A DNA stretch of 64,000 nt from Streptosporangium carneum (lineage in GTDB: Bacteria; Actinomycetota; Actinomycetes; Streptosporangiales; Streptosporangiaceae). Shown here one piece after another: positions 183 to 32,923 of the stretch; positions within the stretch are counted from its first letter, which is position 1, and each line of letters begins with the position of its first letter. The DNA lies in NCBI RefSeq assembly GCF_027922005.1, contig NZ_BSEV01000028.1, forward strand, positions 1 through 64,000, given 5' to 3'. The notes under the pieces were generated by a model, which did no database searches, had not been told where the DNA came from, and saw nothing but the letters and a program-made list of their open reading frames with translations. Both the position numbers and the translations under genes were made by a program.

Positions 183-1136
183 TCAGGCGGGGCGGTGCAC
201 GACGTAGCCGTCCCCTTGGTGGAAGCCGACGACCTGGGCGTCCTGCGCCATCAGGCCGCCGAGCACCTCGCGGACGGCCTGCCGCCAGGCGCGGGCGGCG
301 CCGGGGTCGGTGTGTCGCATGGTCTCGATGTCGGCGGGCACGGCCACCAGCACCACCGGCGCGTCGGTACGGCCGGGCACCGGACAACCCCGGTCGTCGC
401 CGAGCCCGACCACGGCGTCGGCCGGCGCCGGCGTCGAAGCCGGGGCGCCGGCCGCGGCGGCCAGCACGTGCGGCGCGGTCAACGGCCAGCTGACCAGCAG
501 CCGGTCGGACTCGTCCCCGGCGTTGATCACGTCGTCCATCGCTCCGTAGAACGACGGCAGGTACTCGACGGGGCGGGCGCCGAGCTTGGTCAGGTTGAAG
601 TGGGCGTTGCGCCGCACCAGCGGATCGTAGGTCCAGGTGACGCGCTCCAGGCCACGCTGCAGCGCCCAGGCCCGCTGGTGCTGCTTGAGCGCGAACCCCA
701 CCCCCCGGCCGGTCGCAGCACCGGTGACAGTGTCGGCGACGGTGTGGGTGACGGTGTGGGTGACGGCGCCGGTGACATGGGAGTGCAGGACCCGGCCCGC
801 CGGAGCGGCCAGGAACGCCACCGAGGCGCCGACCAGACGCTCCTGCCGGTAGGCCCCGGCCACGTAGTTGCCCGTGTGCGACAGCGCCCGCATCATCTCC
901 ACACTGATCGGCGCGTTCCCCGGCTCCGACCGCCAGATCTCGTCGAACAGGCGGTACACCCGCACGAAGTCGTCGATCTCGAAAAGCTCCGTCACGCGCA
1001 CTCCCGCGGCCCTGGCCGTACGTTCCGCGACCTCCGCGGCCGTCTCGGAAACGGCCCCGGCCCGGACCCGGGCCTCAGCCGTGGCACGGGGCTCGGCCCC
1101 GGCCGTCGGCGGGTCACCGCAGGAGGCGCTCGTCAC
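183..1136 (-). CDS. COG3375-type GNAT acyltransferase (putative D-amino acid N-succinyltransferase)
   Basis: A 317-residue protein. After a non-conserved Ala/Arg-rich N-terminus of about 45 residues comes a segment typical of predicted GNAT proteins that travel with menC-like racemases (VRVYRLFDEIWR, then NAPISVEMMRALSHTGNYVAGAY). The GTG start overlaps the M20 stop by four bases (GTGA), so it is translationally coupled. In the Geobacillus N-succinylamino acid racemase operon the GNAT succinylates D-amino acids before racemisation; that role is inferred here from context. Odd feature: near residues 119-145 a Val-Thr-rich run (VTHTVTHTVADTV) is encoded by 12-bp tandem repeats at about 717-782, probably a slippage-expanded loop. 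Confidence 0.75.
   Translation of the reverse strand: MTSASCGDPPTAGAEPRATAEARVRAGAVSETAAEVAERTARAAGVRVTELFEIDDFVRVYRLFDEIWRSEPGNAPISVEMMRALSHTGNYVAGAYRQERLVGASVAFLAAPAGRVLHSHVTGAVTHTVTHTVADTVTGAATGRGVGFALKQHQRAWALQRGLERVTWTYDPLVRRNAHFNLTKLGARPVEYLPSFYGAMDDVINAGDESDRLLVSWPLTAPHVLAAAAGAPASTPAPADAVVGLGDDRGCPVPGRTDAPVVLVAVPADIETMRHTDPGAARAWRQAVREVLGGLMAQDAQVVGFHQGDGYVVHRPA
717..782. repeat. 12-bp tandem repeat inside the GNAT gene
   Basis: On the + strand the unit GGTGACGGTGTG recurs with small variations about five times in phase with the codons of the minus-strand gene, giving a Val/Thr/Ala run. The in-frame period of four codons means copy-number changes would alter loop length without breaking the frame. 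Confidence 0.7.
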
Positions 1137-2296
1137 CTGCCGTCCTCTCCCGTCAGCACCGGGCTCTCCTGCGGCGCGGACGCCTCTTCCAGCGGCACGC
1201 GCACCCCTCCCGTCGGCTCCCTCAGCACGGAGGAGATCAGCCCGGCCAGCAGTCTCGTCCGGTCCGGTATCTCCGCGACGACCACGTGCTCGTGCGGCGC
1301 GTGCGCGCCGCCGCCGACCGCGCCCAGCCCGTCGAGCGTCGGGCAGCCGACGCCCGCGGTGAAGTTACCGTCCGAGGCGCCGCCCACGGCCACCCCCCGT
1401 AGCGGTTCCATACCCAGATCCTTGGCGATCCCGCAGGCCAGTTCGAACAGGCGCGCCGAGGAGACCTCCTCGAGCGGGGGACGGTTCGGCCCCCCGGTGA
1501 CCTCCAGACGGGTCCCGGAAAGCCGGGGGGCGAGCGCCCGGATCAGCTGGTCGATCCGGTCCTGCTCGGCGATGCTCGGCACCCTGACGTCGACGGAGAC
1601 CTGCGCCAGCGCGGGCACCGTGTTGACCGTGGTCCCGCCGGACAGCACGGTCGGCGTCACCGTCGTCTCCCCCTCGCCCATCGCGCTGAGCGTGAGGATC
1701 TGGTGGGCGAGCTCGATCCCGGCGTTCGCCCCGTTCCACGGCTCCAGACCCGCGTGGGCCGCCCTGCCGTGCACGATGACCCGGTAGTCGGAGGTGCCCT
1801 TGCGGGCCGTCTTGAGCGTCCCGCCGTCGGCGCTCGCCTCCAGCACGAACGTCGCCGCGCAGCCGCGTGCCGACTCCTCGATCAGCGCGCGCGAGGTCGT
1901 CGAGCCGACCTCCTCGTCCCCGGTGATCAGCACGCACACCCCCTCCGGCGACGGGAGGGAGGCCAGCGCGTGGAACATCTGCACCAGTCCCGTCTTCATG
2001 TCGAACACGCCGGGGCCGCGGGCGACCCCGTCCACGAGCGACCAGGGGTGCTCGCGCAGCGTGCCCATCGGCCAGACGGTGTCGTGATGACCGACCAGCA
2101 GCACCCGCGGCGTGCCGAAGGTCCACCGCACGTGGGGGACCCCGTCGATCACGATCGTCTCGGGCCGCGCGCCCAGCCTCCTGAAACCCTGATCCGCGAC
2201 CAGGGCGGCGCTGCGGGCCAGCGCCTCGTGGTCGGCGGAGAAGGATTCGCAGACGACGAGTTCCTGCAGGTCGTCGAGCATCAGGTCGAGGTTCAT
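1133..2296 (-). CDS. M20 family metallopeptidase / N-acyl-amino acid deacylase
   Basis: 387 residues, carboxypeptidase G2/ArgE-like dizinc hydrolase. Metal-site motifs are all present: GHHDTVWP (ligand His70, catalytic Asp72), bridging Asp99 in FDMKTG, GDEEVGS (catalytic Glu128, ligand Glu129), and a final His in GGGAHAPHEHV near residue 350. The dimerisation domain lies between (about 155-270, with AAHAGLEPWNGANA). No signal peptide, so cytoplasmic. The ATG overlaps the dipeptidase stop by four bases. In N-succinylamino acid racemase operons the M20 member removes succinate from the L-form and makes the inversion irreversible; this is the expected role here, though a carboxypeptidase role cannot be excluded. 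Confidence 0.85.
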   Translation of the reverse strand: MNLDLMLDDLQELVVCESFSADHEALARSAALVADQGFRRLGARPETIVIDGVPHVRWTFGTPRVLLVGHHDTVWPMGTLREHPWSLVDGVARGPGVFDMKTGLVQMFHALASLPSPEGVCVLITGDEEVGSTTSRALIEESARGCAATFVLEASADGGTLKTARKGTSDYRVIVHGRAAHAGLEPWNGANAGIELAHQILTLSAMGEGETTVTPTVLSGGTTVNTVPALAQVSVDVRVPSIAEQDRIDQLIRALAPRLSGTRLEVTGGPNRPPLEEVSSARLFELACGIAKDLGMEPLRGVAVGGASDGNFTAGVGCPTLDGLGAVGGGAHAPHEHVVVAEIPDRTRLLAGLISSVLREPTGGVRVPLEEASAPQESPVLTGEDGR

Positions 2297-19309: not shown

Positions 19310-21763
19310 TCAGCCGGCGCCCGGGAGCGGCCTGTCGGCGGCGAAGGCGTCCAGGACGTTCTCGGTGATGGTGGCGATGTCGTTGTCGTAGTTGTTGTAG
19401 AACAGGCTGCCGGCCCAGGAGATGGAGCTGGCCGAGAAGACCGCGCCTCCCCTGGGGTAGCGGGTCAGGGTGACGTCGCCGCGGACGAGCCAGTTGACGG
19501 TGCCGCCCTCCATGAGGTTGGCGGTGTTGTTCTCCTCCTTCACGAACAGGTACTCGTCGCCGAAGCCGGTGCCCGAGCCCAGGACGATCGTGTTGTCGGC
19601 GGTGCCCAGGGCGTAGTCGGCGCGGTCGAGCTCCTCGCCCATGGGGCCGCCCTGGCTCTGCAGGGAGTCGAAGTCGCCGATGGGGCCGGTGGCCTTGACG
19701 CCGTCGAAGACCCAGGCGGCTCTGGGGTCGTGGCTCTGGGGCGAGCGGTCCAGAGGCCGGCTGTAGGTGCCGGTGCCCAGGCGGGAGCCGAAGCCCTGGG
19801 CGGTGAAGCCGACGCCGACCAGTTGCTGCGGGGGACGACCGCGGAAGCGCCACAGGCCGCCGTATTCGCCGGTGGTGCTGTGGTAGTGCTCGCCCGGGGC
19901 GCCCTGCCAGGCTTCGGTGCCGTCGTGGCGGCGCAGCTCGGTGTAGGCGCCGGTGCGGTCGAGCGGGGTGACCCAGTAGAAGCCGTTGCCGCCCAGGTAC
20001 ATGAGGCGGCCGCCGTCGTTCAGCCAGCTCTGCAGGGCGTCGAGCATGGGCTCCGAGGTGTACTCGGGGTGGCTGCCGGTGATGACGACCTTGTAGTCGT
20101 CCAGCAGCTTCGTGCCCTCCCGGTGCAGGTCGTGATCCGTGATGTAGTCGACGGTGTGGCCGGTGGACTCCAGCCAGTCGGTGATGTGGGTGTCGGCCTC
20201 GAACTGCCACGGCCTGCTCTCACCCCTGGGACCGCTGGCGTACGGACGCAGGTTGGTGAGCGGGCGCAGGTGCGACGAGTAGACCACGCCGCTGCCGTCG
20301 CTGTGCCGGGAGTACTGGCTCATCCCGCTCGTGAGGCCGCCCGTCATCCCGTAGGCCAGGTAGCTGAACGTCGGCACCAGCAGGGCGACCTTCGAGGCGG
20401 GCTTGCCGTGCTTGGGCCGCACCACGAAGGTGGCGTGGTAGACGTTCCCGCCCGCCTCCAGCTTGGCCGCGTACACGCCGCTGCGGGCGTCGGCGGGCAC
20501 CTTCCAGGTGAAGCCGGGTTCCCAGGCGGCGTCGCCCAGGTCGTCGTCGTGGAAGTACATCGCCCCGTACTGCTTGGGCGCCAGTTTGAAGTCCTGCTCG
20601 TCGGCCTGCCAGTTGTGGCCGGTGACGGCTCGGACCGGCAGGTTGACCGCGCGGCCGTGCAGACGGTTGCGGGAGGTGTCCACGACCTGGTCGGTGTCCA
20701 TCTTCTGGGAGAAGTCGAAGGCCGCCACCGCCCGCTCCGCAGGCCCGCCGCGGCGCAGCGCACGGATCTCCTGCTCGTCCAGTGCCCGGTCGTACACCCG
20801 CGGGGCGTCGATCTTGCCATTGTAGAATCCGGCAGGCCGGTCCTGACCGCCCTGGTAGGCGGCGATCAACAGGGGGGCGGCGGCGTTCTTCAGCCCGCGG
20901 GCCTCGATCGTGCGGGTGACGACGGCTTCGGAGTCGTTGGGGTGGCCGGTCAGCGGATACTGGTACAGCCCCACCTTGCCGGTTCCGGCGTCGTACGAGA
21001 CGGCGGCGAAGTACCAGCCGGAGGAGTTCACATGCTGCGGCCGGACGACGCCGCCGGGTTCGACCCCTCGCAGCGCCGGGGCCCACGGCTTCAGCTTCAC
21101 GCCGCTGCTCACCGTGTGGGCGCGTCCGGACCGGTCGGCCAGTCGCAGGCCCAGCCCGCCGTCCTGGTCCACGAACATGCCGTATCCGGCCTGTTCCTTC
21201 TCCGACCACTTGGTCACGATCCCCTGTACGGCTCCCGTGCCGGCCGGGGTCCGCCGGTAGGCGACGGGGTTGAGCTTGGAACCGGGGACGGTGGTCGGCG
21301 CGATCCACGCCGTGATGGTGAAGCTCCCGTCGGGCCGCAGGGCGCCGTGGTCGGGAACGGTCACGTACGAGCCCACCGGCAGCGTCTGGTACCGGCCCGG
21401 GTACTCCTTGTTGACGTCGGACTCGACGACCTGCTCCTTGATCCCCGGCCCGCGTGGATCCGCGTCACCGTGCACCACCCGCACCATCGTGGCCCGGAAC
21501 GACGGACTCTTCGTGCTCACCATGATCTTCACGGACTCGCCCGGCTGGACGCTCAGCCGGTCCGGATACCCGCTGATCCCGAGAGTGTCCAACGCCTCCT
21601 GGGGCGTCCTCGGATCGACGGGGAGCGGGGGCGGATCGACCTTCGGGGTCTGGGGCGCCGTCGCCGCCGCCCCCACCCCCGTGGACAGCGGCCCGGACCC
21701 GCCGATCACGGCGACCAACGCCGTGATCAGCAGAGCCGTCCCCGTTCGTCTGCGCGCAATCAC
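19310..21763 (-). CDS. Secreted N,N-dimethylformamidase large-subunit-like protein with LamG domain
   Basis: 817 residues from the GTG at 21763, which has AGAGAGG seven bases upstream. Signal peptide at 1-37 (RRRTGTALLITALVAVIGG...). A LamG/concanavalin-like domain spans about 130-340 (DGSFTITAWIAP ... GKIDAPRVYDRALDEQEI). The C-terminal region (about 430-817) matches the DMFase beta-subunit catalytic domain: VPTFSYLAYG, GSHPEYTSEPMLDALQSWL, GGRLMYLGGNGFYWVTPLDR. In DMFase, two Tyr and a Glu bind mononuclear iron; Tyr in FSYLAY and Glu in HPEY are candidates (inference). No small subunit is encoded nearby. First gene of an operon with the MFS and propeller genes. True substrate unknown; the exported location is unlike the soluble DMF-degrading enzyme. 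Confidence 0.75.
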   Translation of the reverse strand: MIARRRTGTALLITALVAVIGGSGPLSTGVGAAATAPQTPKVDPPPLPVDPRTPQEALDTLGISGYPDRLSVQPGESVKIMVSTKSPSFRATMVRVVHGDADPRGPGIKEQVVESDVNKEYPGRYQTLPVGSYVTVPDHGALRPDGSFTITAWIAPTTVPGSKLNPVAYRRTPAGTGAVQGIVTKWSEKEQAGYGMFVDQDGGLGLRLADRSGRAHTVSSGVKLKPWAPALRGVEPGGVVRPQHVNSSGWYFAAVSYDAGTGKVGLYQYPLTGHPNDSEAVVTRTIEARGLKNAAAPLLIAAYQGGQDRPAGFYNGKIDAPRVYDRALDEQEIRALRRGGPAERAVAAFDFSQKMDTDQVVDTSRNRLHGRAVNLPVRAVTGHNWQADEQDFKLAPKQYGAMYFHDDDLGDAAWEPGFTWKVPADARSGVYAAKLEAGGNVYHATFVVRPKHGKPASKVALLVPTFSYLAYGMTGGLTSGMSQYSRHSDGSGVVYSSHLRPLTNLRPYASGPRGESRPWQFEADTHITDWLESTGHTVDYITDHDLHREGTKLLDDYKVVITGSHPEYTSEPMLDALQSWLNDGGRLMYLGGNGFYWVTPLDRTGAYTELRRHDGTEAWQGAPGEHYHSTTGEYGGLWRFRGRPPQQLVGVGFTAQGFGSRLGTGTYSRPLDRSPQSHDPRAAWVFDGVKATGPIGDFDSLQSQGGPMGEELDRADYALGTADNTIVLGSGTGFGDEYLFVKEENNTANLMEGGTVNWLVRGDVTLTRYPRGGAVFSASSISWAGSLFYNNYDNDIATITENVLDAFAADRPLPGAG

Positions 21764-22079
21764 TCGATCACCTCTCTGCCGGCCCTGGACCCTGGCCACA
21801 CGGGGGACGACGTGCCGTCGCACCGGCGCGGCGACGGTGCGATCGCTGTGCCGCCGCGATCGAACGACGCGCGCTTCCGTCGCCTCAGAGGACGTGCGCT
21901 GCCTCTCGTTGCTGTAGCTGCCTCTCGTTACTGAAAACGTGACCTCAAATTAGAACAAACAGTAAGAGCGTGCTAGAGAGTGTGCATCGGTCAATTTGGC
22001 CGATAGTGGCCTCGGTTCGCTGTGCGGGACCCCGTCGCCCCGGGCGAGGTGAGAGCGCGCCGTGGTGTGGTTACGATTC
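21764..22079. other. Divergent intergenic region with a 19-bp direct repeat
   Basis: Two adjacent copies of a 19-bp unit starting GCTGCCTCTCGTT lie at 21898-21916 and 21917-21935, about 135 bp upstream of the DMFase-like gene start. The AT-rich stretch 21935-21975 next to it is a plausible promoter region. The repeat could be a tandem operator for the DMFase-MFS-propeller operon. Confidence 0.5.
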
Positions 22080-25691: not shown

Positions 25692-28349
25692 TTACGGCGT
25701 CAGGACGTCGTCGATGGCCGCGTGCAGGTTCGGTCGCGGGCCGATGTGGTGCGGGTCGCCCGCGGGCTGCGGCGTGCCGGTCAGCTTGAGGGTGTCGCGG
25801 ACCTGGGCCGGGGTGAGCACCCCGCTCGCCGCCTTGGCCACGCCCTGCAGGTCGGCCACCGCGCCGGCCACGACGGCGCTGGCGCTGGAGGTGCCGTCGA
25901 AGGTGCCGGTGTACATCTTGTTGGGGTCGGTCACCGAGGGGGTCAGGTCCTTCCAGCCGGTGACGCCCAGGGTGGCCACGCACGCGCCGTAGGCCTGGAC
26001 GTCGACGCGCGAGCCGTACGTGGAGAACGACAGCGCCCTGAGCTCGGCGGTGGGGGAGGAGCCTGTGCAGTTCGTCCCGCCGGGGCTGGGCGGCGCTCCC
26101 GCCCCGATCATGATGGCGCCGGAGTCGGGACGGCCCATGACGGTGGCGGCGAAGGCGTCGTTCGGGTCGTCGAGGTCGTTGCCGCCGTTGCCCGCCGCCT
26201 CCACGACGGTCACCCCTGCCGCGGTGGCCAGCACCGTCTGGTCGTAGACGCTGCTGTCGAGCTCCCACGGGTACCAGCCGCCGGAGGTCGCTATCGCGAC
26301 CTCGAACAGGATCACGTCTCCCGGCAGGGAGGACGTGGCGGCGTAACCGACGGCGTCAGGGATGGAGGAGGTGGACAGGTTCAGCCTGGCGTGCGGTGCG
26401 ATGCCCGCCATGCCGACCCCGTTGTCGTCCTTGGCGCCGATCACCCCGGCGACGGCGGTGCCGTGGTGGACCGAGGCGTCGCTGGTGCACGGGTCGCCGA
26501 ACATGGACGGCATCTGGACCACCGTGCCGGCCGTGACCCGTCCTGCGAGGTCCTCGTGACACAGGTTCCACGCGTTGAGCAGCGTGAACTGCTCGTACGG
26601 GAAGGTCCGGGAGACGGTGGTGCCGTCACCGAGCTGCCCGCTGCCGTTGGCGCCCCAGCTGTAGAGCCACTGGCCGGCCTTGCCGAAGGTGTGCGCCAGG
26701 CCCGCCGAGACCGTCTCGTTGCTCGCGGAGGTCACGATGGGCGTGGTGGAGTCGGTGGTGGTGCCGTTGCCGAGCTGGCCCTGGGCGTTGTCACCCCAGG
26801 TGTGGACCGTCAGGAGGGACGATGACGGCGGCAGGGCTATGGCGGCGCTGTGCAGGGAACCGGCGGACACGACGTAGGCGTTCGACAGGCCGGAGACGGC
26901 GACCGGAGAGGTCCTGTCGACGGTGGTGCCGTCACCCAGCTGGCCCTGGCTGTTGTCGCCCCACGCCTTGACCGTGCCGCCGTTGAGCAGGGCGAGCACG
27001 TGGTCGGCGCGGCTGCTGATCTGCTTGACGCCGGTCAGACCGGGCAGCGCGACCGGGGTCGTCCTGTCGACGGTGGTGCCGTCGCCCAGCTGGCCCTGGG
27101 CGTTGTCGCCCCACGCCTTGACCGTGCCGTTGGACAGCACGACGACGGAGTGGGTGCCTCCCGCCGCGACCGTGCCGGCCCCGCCGGCCACGCCCGTGAG
27201 CCCGGGAACGGTGATCGCGATCGCGGAGTCGGAGGTCCCGTAGCCGAGCTGGCGCTGGCTGTTGTCGCCCCACGCCCGCACCGTGCCGTCCGAAAGGACG
27301 GCCAGGGCATGGCCCGCGCCCGCGCTCACGCCCACCGCGTTGAAGATCCCGGCGACCTGCACCGGCGTCGCGCTGTCGATGGTGCTGCCGTTGCCGAGCT
27401 GGCCCTGGGAGTTGTCGCCCCACGCCCACACGGTGCCGTCGCTCTTCAGCGCGACCGAGTAACCCTTGCCCGCGGAGACGGCCGTGACGTTGGTCAGGCC
27501 GGTGACCTGCACCGGGACCTTCTTGGGCGTGGTGCTGCCGTTGCCGAGCTGGCCCTGGGAGTTGTCGCCCCACGCCCACACCTGACCGAGTGACGTGCCC
27601 CCCGCCACCAGCAGGGAGTGGTCGTCGCCCGCGGCGACCGTCTGCGGTCCGGTCTGCGAGCTCAGCGCGCCCTGGGCCTCGATGTCGGTGACGAGGATGC
27701 CGTCGCCCTTGCCGCCGGGCTGCGCGTTGGCGTAGTCGGCGTCGACCCCTCCGCCCTGGGCGGAGCCGGGCGCGTTGCGGTACCTCTGGTGCGAGCGCAG
27801 TGGCTCGACGGGGGCCACGGTGATCGGCCTGGCCTGGGCGATCTCCACCGAGGGCAGGGCGTTCAGGTCGTCCAGCAGCGACTCGATGCCCTTGGGCACG
27901 GTGACGACGAACCACGAGTTCAGGTCGGGCAGCTCCCTGCCGACCCGCTTCTCCAGCTGGAGTCGCCGCTGGGTGACCTTCTCCTCGGACGCGCGCGACA
28001 ACGGCCTGATCGACGCGCCGTCGTGTTTGGCCAGCACCCGCTGGACCGCGGCTGCGTCGGCCGTGTCCTCCGCGACCAGTTTGCGGTCGCGCAGCCGTAC
28101 CTCCCGGTCGGCCTTGAACTTCACCGACAGCTCAGTCGTGGAGAAGCCCTTGGGAAGCGGCCCGTGCGTGCCCGGCGCGCGCCCCTTGTCCTTGCTGTGG
28201 TCGTAGGCGGGGGCAGGTTCGGCCGAGGCCGGTCCCGCCGAGGCCACCGCCGACAACGTGCCGACGGTCACGGCGAGCACGGCCGCGGCGAGCCGCCGCA
28301 GGGACGGCCGAACTCTTTCAGAATTGTGAAAATGAGAGCTGACTGGCAA
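25692..28349 (-). CDS. Secreted subtilisin-like (S8) protease with an RCC1 propeller inserted in the catalytic domain
   Basis: 885 residues. Signal peptide 1-43 (AAAVLAVTVGTLSAVASAGP, then ASA). A propeptide-like region spans about 44-205. Catalytic Asp222 is in ILVTDIE. Seven RCC1 blades follow at about 232-575, each with a WGDNSQGQLGNG-type signature. The catalytic domain then resumes with AWNLCHEDLAGRV, His629 (HHGTAVAGV), oxyanion Asn721 (EAAGNGG) and Ser821 (DGTSSASAVVAG). The Asp-His distance is about 407 residues against roughly 40-60 in ordinary subtilases, because the propeller splits the DIE...AWNLxHEDL motif. The TTG start has GGGAG six bases upstream; no ATG/GTG in frame fits as well. 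Target unknown; the propeller may gate or select substrates. Confidence 0.85.
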   Translation of the reverse strand: MPVSSHFHNSERVRPSLRRLAAAVLAVTVGTLSAVASAGPASAEPAPAYDHSKDKGRAPGTHGPLPKGFSTTELSVKFKADREVRLRDRKLVAEDTADAAAVQRVLAKHDGASIRPLSRASEEKVTQRRLQLEKRVGRELPDLNSWFVVTVPKGIESLLDDLNALPSVEIAQARPITVAPVEPLRSHQRYRNAPGSAQGGGVDADYANAQPGGKGDGILVTDIEAQGALSSQTGPQTVAAGDDHSLLVAGGTSLGQVWAWGDNSQGQLGNGSTTPKKVPVQVTGLTNVTAVSAGKGYSVALKSDGTVWAWGDNSQGQLGNGSTIDSATPVQVAGIFNAVGVSAGAGHALAVLSDGTVRAWGDNSQRQLGYGTSDSAIAITVPGLTGVAGGAGTVAAGGTHSVVVLSNGTVKAWGDNAQGQLGDGTTVDRTTPVALPGLTGVKQISSRADHVLALLNGGTVKAWGDNSQGQLGDGTTVDRTSPVAVSGLSNAYVVSAGSLHSAAIALPPSSSLLTVHTWGDNAQGQLGNGTTTDSTTPIVTSASNETVSAGLAHTFGKAGQWLYSWGANGSGQLGDGTTVSRTFPYEQFTLLNAWNLCHEDLAGRVTAGTVVQMPSMFGDPCTSDASVHHGTAVAGVIGAKDDNGVGMAGIAPHARLNLSTSSIPDAVGYAATSSLPGDVILFEVAIATSGGWYPWELDSSVYDQTVLATAAGVTVVEAAGNGGNDLDDPNDAFAATVMGRPDSGAIMIGAGAPPSPGGTNCTGSSPTAELRALSFSTYGSRVDVQAYGACVATLGVTGWKDLTPSVTDPNKMYTGTFDGTSSASAVVAGAVADLQGVAKAASGVLTPAQVRDTLKLTGTPQPAGDPHHIGPRPNLHAAIDDVLTP

Positions 28350-28666
28350 TGCGTTCTCCCTCGGTGTCTTTCTCGACGCGCGAGTTCAGAGCCTCCCAAT
28401 CAGTGACCTCGGGCACGCCGGTCGGCGGCGGATTGCTTTCCCGAGCACAGTGATCCAAGGCGCGGGCGCCCATGGAAGGCCAATTGGTCGCGCAATCTTC
28501 GTGTGTCCTGAGAACAACAGACCCGACGGGTCAGCATAGGCTGATCACCCGTATGAAAATCAATACCAAAATGATTGACACGGTCAGCCATTAAGTGAGT
28601 GCGTGGAGTGATCGCGCCCATTTCCGTGGGAGACGACTTGTTTGTTGCAGGTTGGTTACGGTGCTC

Positions 28667-28816: not shown

Positions 28817-29121
28817 GAATGCTTTCGCAGGCCTTAAAAGGCGAGGTCGGATATGCCGTGAATCGGCTTGACGACTCCGCGCGCCCGCCTGACGCCCGAC
28901 CGCGTGAATCGCTTTCATGCTTGATTTTCCGATGGGTGATCAGCCTATGCTGACCGTCGGGTCCATAGTTTTCACGACATGCGTCGACTGTGCGGGTAAT
29001 GAGCTTTACCGTGGTAGCCGTGCCTTGGGCCGATGCGCTTTCGAGAGCGTGCCGCCGCTGTTCGGCGTGCCCGAAATCCTGGAACCCGCGCGCCGACGAC
29101 GACGCCGGAGGAGACGGGCCG

Positions 29122-31314: not shown

Positions 31315-32748
31315 TCAGTGGCAGGCGGTGGTGCCGCTGTCGGTGAAGGACTTGCCCGCCTCGGGGACGAACTGCCAGCTGTAGGCGTTCGGGTGGAGGG
31401 TGACCTTCAGGACGCCGTAGGTGTCGCTGTTGCGGACCTCGCTGTTGGCCAGGATGGTCCCGAAGCCGTAGTGGCTCGCCCCTCCGGACCCGACGACGAA
31501 GTGGCGGATGCCGCGCGCGTTGTCGAGCTGGTTGGACGGGGTGATCGGCGCGAACCGCTCGTACTGGTGGTTGTGGCCGGTCAGGATCAGGTCGGCGTCG
31601 TTGTCGTACAGCGCCTGCACGATCGGGGCGACCGAGGTGTCGGGCGAGTGGTTGGCGCCCGAGGTGTAACGCGGGTGGTGCCACATCGCCACCGTGCACG
31701 GCCTGGCGCTGGCCGCCAGGTCGGCGCGCAGCCACGTCACCTGGGCGGAGCTCGCGCCGCAGCCGCCGACGGCCGAGCAGTTGGAGTTGAGCACGACGAC
31801 GTGCCAGTTCGAGCCGACGTCGTAGGAGTAGTAGCCCTTGGACGGGTCGCCCGCCGACGCGCCGAAGTAGCCGTAGTACCCCGTCGCGCCGGAGGTGTTG
31901 TAGTCGTGGTTGCCCGGCACCGGCCTGGTGCGCGCCTTGTGACGTCCCCAGGTCGGGTTGTAGTAGGTGTTGAACTCCGAGGCGGTGCCGTTGTCGTAGA
32001 CGTTGTCGCCGAGCGTGAAGACCGTGCCCGGGATGTTGTCGAGCAGCGCGGCGGTGGCGCTGTCACCGGAGCCGGAGTTGGAGATGTCGCCCGCGCCGAC
32101 GAGCACCGGGTCGCCGGACGTCGCGGTGGGCGTGGGCGTGGGGCTGGAGGTCGCGGTGGGCGTGGGGCCCGCGTCGGTGGTCACCACGAGCTGGGGCGCG
32201 GTCGAGGCTCCGCTCTCCCGCGAGTCGTAGTCCGCGCCGTCCGAACTGGAGGAGGTGACGCCGATGCTGTAGGTGCCGTTGCCGGTCACGTACGACGTCA
32301 CGTCGATCTCGTACCAGGCGTTCTGGGCCACGGAGCCGAGCGTTCCCAGCGTGGCCCCGTCGATGGACGGCTGGTTGTTCCACGTGGTGCCCGTCTCGGA
32401 CCAGGTGGTGTTGCTCACGCCCTTGAACGTGCCGCCGTTGCCGCTCGCCGCGCCGCTCACGTTGTCGGTGTGGACGCGCAGTTTGACGGTGCTGATCGGG
32501 CCGGAGATCCCCGCGACGGTGAACCTCAGGAACGCCCGCTTGACAGGTGAGTTGTCGACGCCGAGCTGTCCGGACGTGCCGTAGTTGGTGCTCGTGTTGC
32601 CGTTGTCCACGTAGGTGTCGGCCACGGGGGTGAAGGTGGCGGTGGCGGCGTTCGCCACGCCTCCGGACAGGGTCGCGGCCGTGAACACGGCCGTGCCGCC
32701 GACGGCGACGGCCATGGACGCCGCTGTGAGCGCCTTGCGTCGGAACAT
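31315..32748 (-). CDS. Secreted calcineurin-like metallophosphoesterase with DNRLRE/carbohydrate-binding-type N-domain
   Basis: 477 residues from the ATG at 32748 (GAGGAGC RBS). Signal peptide about 1-33 (MFRRKALTAASMAVAVGGTA...). Residues about 35-190 form a DNRLRE-type beta domain (TFTPVADTYVDNGNTSTNYG, AFLRFTVAGISGPISTVKLR). A Thr/Pro/Ser linker follows, then the phosphoesterase domain (about 215-477): GAGDISN, LGDNVYDNG, PVPGNHDYNT, MWHHPRYT and LTGHNHQYERF, the full metal-ligand set of purple-acid-phosphatase-like enzymes. First gene of the operon with MFS copy 2 and propeller copy 2. Likely releases phosphate from extracellular esters; substrate unproven. Confidence 0.88.
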   Translation of the reverse strand: MFRRKALTAASMAVAVGGTAVFTAATLSGGVANAATATFTPVADTYVDNGNTSTNYGTSGQLGVDNSPVKRAFLRFTVAGISGPISTVKLRVHTDNVSGAASGNGGTFKGVSNTTWSETGTTWNNQPSIDGATLGTLGSVAQNAWYEIDVTSYVTGNGTYSIGVTSSSSDGADYDSRESGASTAPQLVVTTDAGPTPTATSSPTPTPTATSGDPVLVGAGDISNSGSGDSATAALLDNIPGTVFTLGDNVYDNGTASEFNTYYNPTWGRHKARTRPVPGNHDYNTSGATGYYGYFGASAGDPSKGYYSYDVGSNWHVVVLNSNCSAVGGCGASSAQVTWLRADLAASARPCTVAMWHHPRYTSGANHSPDTSVAPIVQALYDNDADLILTGHNHQYERFAPITPSNQLDNARGIRHFVVGSGGASHYGFGTILANSEVRNSDTYGVLKVTLHPNAYSWQFVPEAGKSFTDSGTTACH

Positions 32749-32923
32749 GCGTTTGCTCCTCGTACGCGGTTGTGGGGGGCAAACATGGACGCTAGATCGC
32801 TCACCACTCGATTCGATGAGCGGAAACGGATCGCAGGGAGTCCGGACGGTTAATGACCGGCGTGTCAACGGTGACACGTACGGTGAGTTCGGTCCGATGA
32901 CGGCCGGCGGGCCGCGAGGCAGG

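Follow-up and report, generated by a model that had tools for sequence, protein, structure and literature searches.

An S8 subtilase-type protein of Streptosporangium carneum with a predicted seven-bladed RCC1 propeller between its catalytic Asp and His

The window, that is, the whole stretch of 64,000 nucleotides analysed here (contig NZ_BSEV01000028.1, positions 1 to 64,000), carries at 25692-28349 an open reading frame that a first-pass annotation, made from the sequence, had described as a subtilisin split by an RCC1 propeller. The frame was borne out; the annotation gave no strand, and the gene lies on the minus strand. Its features are listed below together with those of the DNA in front of it. 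Counts refer to 30 intact genes having the insert (fused) and 28 uninterrupted relatives (unfused).

28400-28537, minus: short upstream open reading frame with Cys codons (MLTRRVCC...), possible leader peptide, in a conserved block
25692-28349, minus: RCC1-interrupted subtilase gene, 885 residues, TTG start, single open frame
28221-28349, minus: probable signal peptide, about residues 1-43 (AVASAGPASA/EP), judged by eye
27825-28166, minus: propeptide-like alpha/beta domain, residues 62-175, alternating strands and helices in the AlphaFold2 model
27684-27686, minus: catalytic Asp222, in 29/30 fused and 28/28 unfused
26571-27677, minus: insert with the seven-bladed RCC1 propeller, residues 225-593 (core 235-586), from Pfam and AlphaFold2
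25695-26570, minus: remaining subtilase domain, residues 594-885, from PF00082 and alignment A1
26559-26561, minus: Cys597, fourth residue past the insert, in WNLCHEDL, in 30/30 fused and 0/28 unfused
26487-26489, minus: Cys621, possible disulfide partner of Cys597, in 30/30 fused and 0/28 unfused
26463-26465, minus: catalytic His629, in 30/30 fused and 28/28 unfused
26187-26189, minus: oxyanion-hole Asn721, in 30/30 fused and 28/28 unfused
25887-25889, minus: catalytic Ser821, in 30/30 fused and 28/28 unfused

The start codon is TTG or GTG at the equal place after a GGAGA-like site in the six aligned Streptosporangium copies, and the protein of the window is presumably secreted. Residues 62-175 have ten-residue pLDDT means of 45-83 in the AlphaFold2 model, and may be an inhibitor-type propeptide; the Pfam I9 propeptide profile gave no match in the 885-residue protein at 0.01. 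The motifs follow in the order VTD(222)IE, seven RCC1 repeats, WNLCHEDL, HH(629)GTAVAG, AAGN(721)GG, and GTS(821)SAS. The distance of 407 residues that had been noted between Asp222 (VTDIE) and His629 (HHGTAVAG) is correct. Pfam finds seven stretches of RCC1 (PF00415, 2.7e-64) and a match to PF25390 (8.5e-73) in this protein; the RCC1 match rules out chance RCC1-like repeats. Peptidase_S8 (PF00082) matches residues 619-858 at 1.1e-19, with a score of 71.3 bits against a cut-off of 21.8, which places the protein in the S8 family. This match covers profile positions 46-273; it starts at position 46 because the insert severs the first part of the domain, which bears the Asp. None of the NCBI named families exceeded its own cut-off for the window protein: matches to mycosin and PrtP were weak, and the mycosin of type VII secretion (TIGR03921) was rejected at 37.7 bits, below the NCBIfam cut-off of 278.75. 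A PA domain gave no Pfam match at 0.01 in the window protein, which has its insert between the Asp and the His instead.

The insert starts after the Glu of VTDIE and ends before the Trp of WNLCHEDL; in uninterrupted relatives this gap is two residues long. Counted to the His of HED, the catalytic Asp is 372-389 residues away in all 30 fused genes and 9 in all 28 unfused ones. The inserts of all 30 fused genes, 365-382 residues long, replace the two residues between the Glu and the Trp. The pattern D-[IVLC]-E-x-x-W is present in 28/28 unfused genes; at the junction of the fused genes the Glu is retained in 27/30 and, judged by eye, the Trp in 24/30. The position of the insert agrees with the earlier reading that the insertion falls exactly after DIE with WNxxHEDL resuming behind it, and the nine-residue spacing agrees with the statement that this segment is continuous in related S8 enzymes. 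The seven blades had been placed at about 232-575; their number is confirmed by the seven RCC1 stretches, whereas the insert is slightly larger, at 225-593. When the unfused relative L150 is aligned with AK.1, a subtilase of solved structure (1dbi), the match is weak (3.7e-05 for sequence); HEDL falls on the HPDL motif of AK.1, and the Asp of L150 faces a gap adjoining the Asp of AK.1. This would put the insertion point between the strand of the Asp and that motif.

In the AlphaFold2 model, 28 strands (7 x 4) are predicted at 235-586, with ten-residue pLDDT means of 61 to 94, most of them above 80. The best fold match is UVR8 (Z 51, rmsd 1.7, 343 aligned residues, 28% identity, residues 230-585 of the second model); Foldseek gave the same match for the first model at 7.6e-38. 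HERC, RPGR, and RCC1 follow, and BLIP-II, the beta-lactamase inhibitor protein II from Streptomyces, matches the predicted propeller with Z 28. The ring seems to be closed and seven-bladed, closure being judged from the match to UVR8 and not from coordinates. Thus the model, together with the seven RCC1 stretches, speaks for the closed, intact propeller that the first-pass annotation had suggested, and the structure prediction it had called for gave this propeller, with the protease part at low pLDDT. When blades were counted by their WG motifs in the 30 inserts, seven were found in 20, six in 7, and five in 3; the lower counts are ascribed to degenerate motifs, because the length of the insert stays within 365-382 residues. 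The chain runs into the ring ahead of the first strand of blade 1 and out of it behind the final strand of blade 7. For an up-and-down propeller, this places entry and exit on one face, that of the DA and BC loops. This means that this face should point towards the protease, an orientation that follows from topology and is not seen in the model.

Asp222, His629, Asn721, and Ser821 follow each other in the expected order, and the earlier statement that all catalytic residues are retained holds. From the presence of the His, Asn, and Ser in all 30 divergent fused copies, and of the Asp in all but one, a working enzyme is likely. The two cysteines behind the insert, Cys597 and Cys621, might form a disulfide. 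Judged from its distribution over the aligned genes, this pair came with the insert or became fixed on the same branch. A second pair, Cys761 and Cys790, is present in 30/30 fused and 10/28 unfused genes.

The protease part was predicted at pLDDT values below about 50 in the first AlphaFold model and below about 65 in the second, from alignments of 5 and 10 rows, respectively. The second alignment was enlarged by locus L151 of a viral contig and four related loci. L151 comes from the second of two scans of viral contigs; the first gave none and the second eight loci. Among these, only L151 matches almost the full query, and the other seven were left out. A fold search with the whole model (VIA-align) gave no subtilase among the 50 matches listed; the propeller fills this list, which leaves the protease part uninformed. 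It should be mentioned that L151 itself (IMG/VR contig, 433-2055, plus strand) is an uninterrupted relative with VVHYEEEWNFDHEDL at the place of the expected catalytic Asp, apparently without the Asp.

A conserved block of DNA lies upstream of all six Streptosporangium copies, in the window at 28400-28549 on the minus strand. With up to two mismatches allowed, a genome-wide search for its core pattern hits only the DNA before the four fused genes and one further site in the window; the backward pattern, used as a control, gave one match. An upstream reading frame with at least three Cys codons is found in 5/6 Streptosporangium copies; that of L003 has 17 codons, four of them for Cys. Candidate leader peptides with runs of Cys have been described for Cys operons of some Actinobacteria (PMC1262725), and by analogy a cysteine-responsive control through the upstream frame is conceivable. 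As a trait of the whole family, such a leader was rejected: frames with at least three Cys codons precede 5/24 other fused and 4/28 unfused genes, and they are dissimilar and chance-like. A second, divergent copy of the block lies on the opposite strand, at 28935-29060 (plus; right end estimated by eye), with no protease gene behind it, and is probably the relic of a further copy. Elsewhere in the window, on the minus strand, Pfam finds a laminin-G-like domain with a C-terminal domain like the N,N-dimethylformamidase beta subunit (19310-21823) and a metallophosphoesterase with an N-terminal CBM96 carbohydrate-binding module (31315-32877).

The search for other S8 proteases interrupted by RCC1, which had been proposed as a check, yielded 30 intact fused genes; they come from 13 genomes, which belong to two actinobacterial families. 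These numbers are lower bounds, since the best six to eight first-look candidates were scored per genome. The counts exclude the frameshifted L097 and take L071 and L072, which duplicate L081 and L084, only once; L069 and L070 stand for L005 and L030. The genome of the window has four fused copies; the three others are on another contig and are 73-76% identical, and three of the four lie within 21 kb. Streptosporangium saharense, of the same genus, has two, and Actinomadura rayongensis and A. macrotermitis are among the further carriers. In the family of the window, the A1 profile of the protease part matched 18/341 genomes at 1e-20: nine have intact fused genes, one (G329) has the frameshifted fused gene L097, and eight have uninterrupted genes. 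In the second family, that of G572, a match at 1e-40 was obtained in 13/297 genomes; four of them have fused genes and nine unfused ones. No fused lineage outside these two families was found in a class sample of 394 genomes (11 matching at 1e-30), nor was a further one found among 396 phylum genomes or among 298 genomes from the order of G572 (cut-offs 1e-45 and 1e-60). Two extra matches from the phylum, which stand outside the 28, are unfused with a nine-residue spacing judged by eye.

In G327, about 18 kb of one contig hold four fused copies, three of them adjacent and equally oriented; in G369 there are at least seven copies. No conserved neighbour gene stood out in a non-systematic look at the two array regions listed. 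Among 95 matching plasmid records, none was matched over 80% of the query. A single phage record matched the protease part, through a gene of the Paenibacillus phage phiERICV (CP019719.1, 40830-41693; 34% identity over 99% of the query, 2e-19), which is annotated as GlcNAc-binding protein A and looks like a subtilase under another name.

In a tree built from the regions outside the insert, the 30 fused genes make up one side of a single branch (SH-aLRT 100, length 0.97), and the tree needs one change of state; a set of 45 rows gave the same outcome. The ten rows of the second family (f48) are the unfused ones that stand closest to the fused genes. The tree comes from a short search with SH-aLRT as its only support measure and no bootstrap, and carries a warning of long branches meeting among the unfused rows. 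The root was placed by us on 11 unfused rows; the one-branch result is independent of the root, whereas a single gain depends on it. With this rooting, the propeller was apparently inserted once, in an ancestor of the fused genes.

The propeller changes faster than the rest of the protein. Over the 15 pairs of the six Streptosporangium copies, the propeller has a dN/dS (Nei-Gojobori) of 0.67, the protease part one of 0.50, and the propeptide region one of 0.38; separate alignments gave 0.67, 0.50, and 0.37. When codon columns were permuted, a difference as large was obtained in 39/1000 cases against the protease part and in 0/1000 against the propeptide region. Over the six pairs inside the genome of the window the values were 0.92, 0.65, and 0.46, and the permutations gave 33/1000 and 0/1000. 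The gap to the protease part is modest, and the faster change may reflect relaxed constraint. Within the propeller, the BC loops are most variable, with a mean pairwise difference of 0.45 in the six copies and 0.64 in all 30, and strand C and the CD loops are least variable, at 0.17 for both in the six copies and at 0.35 and 0.41, respectively, in all 30. The conservation of the CD loops is structural, because these loops carry the RCC1 signature. Across the 30 fused genes, variation is higher in the AB loops, on the far face (0.59), than in the DA loops, on the near face (0.51), and strand D gives 0.62. The contrast between the two faces is thus weak and usable only as a hint.

The architecture, a tree that calls for one origin, the residue conservation, the extra cysteines, the predicted propeller fold, and the gene arrays are observations; secretion, activity, the disulfide, the orientation of the ring, and a role in target binding or gating go beyond them and are inferred. 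A complete RCC1 propeller would have entered, apparently once, a stretch of two residues lying between the catalytic Asp and W..HEDL, the motif that leads on to the catalytic His. As the propeller is a ring that folds by itself, the strand of the Asp and the rest of the protease could still meet, and the Cys597/Cys621 pair may clamp the chain right behind the insert. Since the insert starts and ends on one face of the ring, it is this face, with the most variable element, the BC loops, that would point at the protease. After activation of the subtilase from its propeptide form, the ring would stand beside the Asp side of the cleft. There it might serve as an exosite which binds a particular protein or surface and offers this target to the neighbouring cleft. 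To this reading, a secreted and catalytically competent S8 subtilase with the propeller as target-binding exosite, we give an even chance. The paralogues, some of them in tandem arrays, might then be aimed at different targets through divergence of the propeller. The stronger form, in which the fast-changing face of the inserted propeller sets the substrate range and the tandem arrays are a repertoire of target-directed proteases, with every propeller a separate recognition surface on one shared protease, is put forward tentatively and has a distinctly smaller chance of being right.

The propeller could instead be a plain module for adhesion or localisation, to cell wall, polysaccharide, or another surface, with no special relation to the active site. 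Accessory domains at the C-terminus of other members would fit this. Thirteen frames of the search in the family of the window are longer, at 1229-1286 residues; L078 has further RCC1 repeats behind the protease (Pfam, on a partial frame), motif counts suggest such C-terminal repeats in other long frames too, and L096 has a ricin-B lectin there in place of RCC1 repeats. The same additions also speak the other way, since they indicate that a surface module can sit elsewhere, and yet the position of the propeller is constant in 30/30 genes. With one origin, however, the fixed position may be mere inheritance. Adhesion alone seems rather unlikely.

Another role that would involve the active site is that of a regulatory lid, which lies over the cleft or remodels it, so that the enzyme stays inactive until a ligand is bound or the chain is cut. 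The insert directly follows the catalytic Asp in 30/30 copies, as such a lid might. PA-domain subtilases set a precedent, since their inserted domain possibly controls access. The PA domain of SpyCEP (K420-N574) sits over the active site and comes between His279 and Ser617 in the chain; the SpyCEP paper, which shows C5a peptidase and cucumisin beside this protein, suggests that the domain regulates access or recognises the substrate (PMC7113628). However, the predicted propeptide-like domain would already give a means of inhibition. A lid might also be supposed to vary least where it faces the protease, yet it is the BC loops that vary most, though the contrast between the faces is weak. We regard a lid as unlikely.

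A family of pseudoproteases or decaying duplicates, in which the propeller is the active part, is very improbable. Three fused copies point in this direction: L089 has Val in place of the catalytic Asp, L080 has HGN for HGT, and L097 (G329) has a frameshift, so that some members may be inactive, decaying, or pseudoproteases. For the family as a whole, the near-complete conservation of the catalytic residues and the dN/dS of the protease part, 0.50 over the 15 pairs and 0.65 within the genome, argue against it. An assembly or annotation artefact, in which a separate RCC1 gene was joined to a protease gene, had been named as a possible objection by the first-pass annotation and has next to no probability, since nothing was found in its favour and the 30 intact genes of 13 independently assembled genomes, each in one open frame, share the same junction.

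Compared with the 28 uninterrupted actinobacterial S8 subtilases (D-[IVLC]-E-x-x-W-x-x-x-H-E-D-L), the window protein has the same order of catalytic motifs, and both the N-terminal part and the protease part at the C-terminus can be aligned; the relatives are without the propeller and without Cys597 and Cys621. Tripeptidyl peptidase II and pyrolysin have an insert of some 150-200 residues between the Asp and the His; these inserts are not known to be RCC1 propellers. PA-domain subtilases likewise have a folded domain inside the S8 domain adjoining the active site, but in SpyCEP this is a PA domain between the His and the Ser, whereas here it is an RCC1 propeller between the Asp and the His. 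UVR8, the closest fold, is a plant photoreceptor without an enzyme domain. BLIP-II, which is bacterial, secreted, and of the RCC1/BLIP-II propeller group, is described as acting by binding another protein (PMC9218822); it is a stand-alone inhibitor with no enzyme part, whereas the propeller of the window sits inside a protease. No paper on an RCC1 propeller within a subtilase was found in the open-access literature, which excludes most subscription journals, and by word counts neither "RCC1" nor "propeller" occurs in the text of a survey of the subtilase family (PMC9549277). The parts are known and the arrangement is not described in the literature searched; domain databases may list the architecture uncommented.

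Domains inserted into subtilases, such as the PA domain, are known, and little is understood of what they do. In the present case it is the catalytic triad itself that is interrupted, by a large fold in the shape of a ring; folds of this kind often bind proteins. It arose apparently once, was accompanied by an extra pair of cysteines, and was then multiplied into arrays. The uninterrupted relatives form a natural before-and-after pair with the fused proteins, so that one could measure directly what happens when a possible exosite is placed beside a catalytic residue, and the propeller would be a natural scaffold on which to study or engineer the targeting of proteases. The fused design recurs in related soil actinobacteria, and in these organisms the propeller may be an exchangeable surface, next to the active site, for target recognition.
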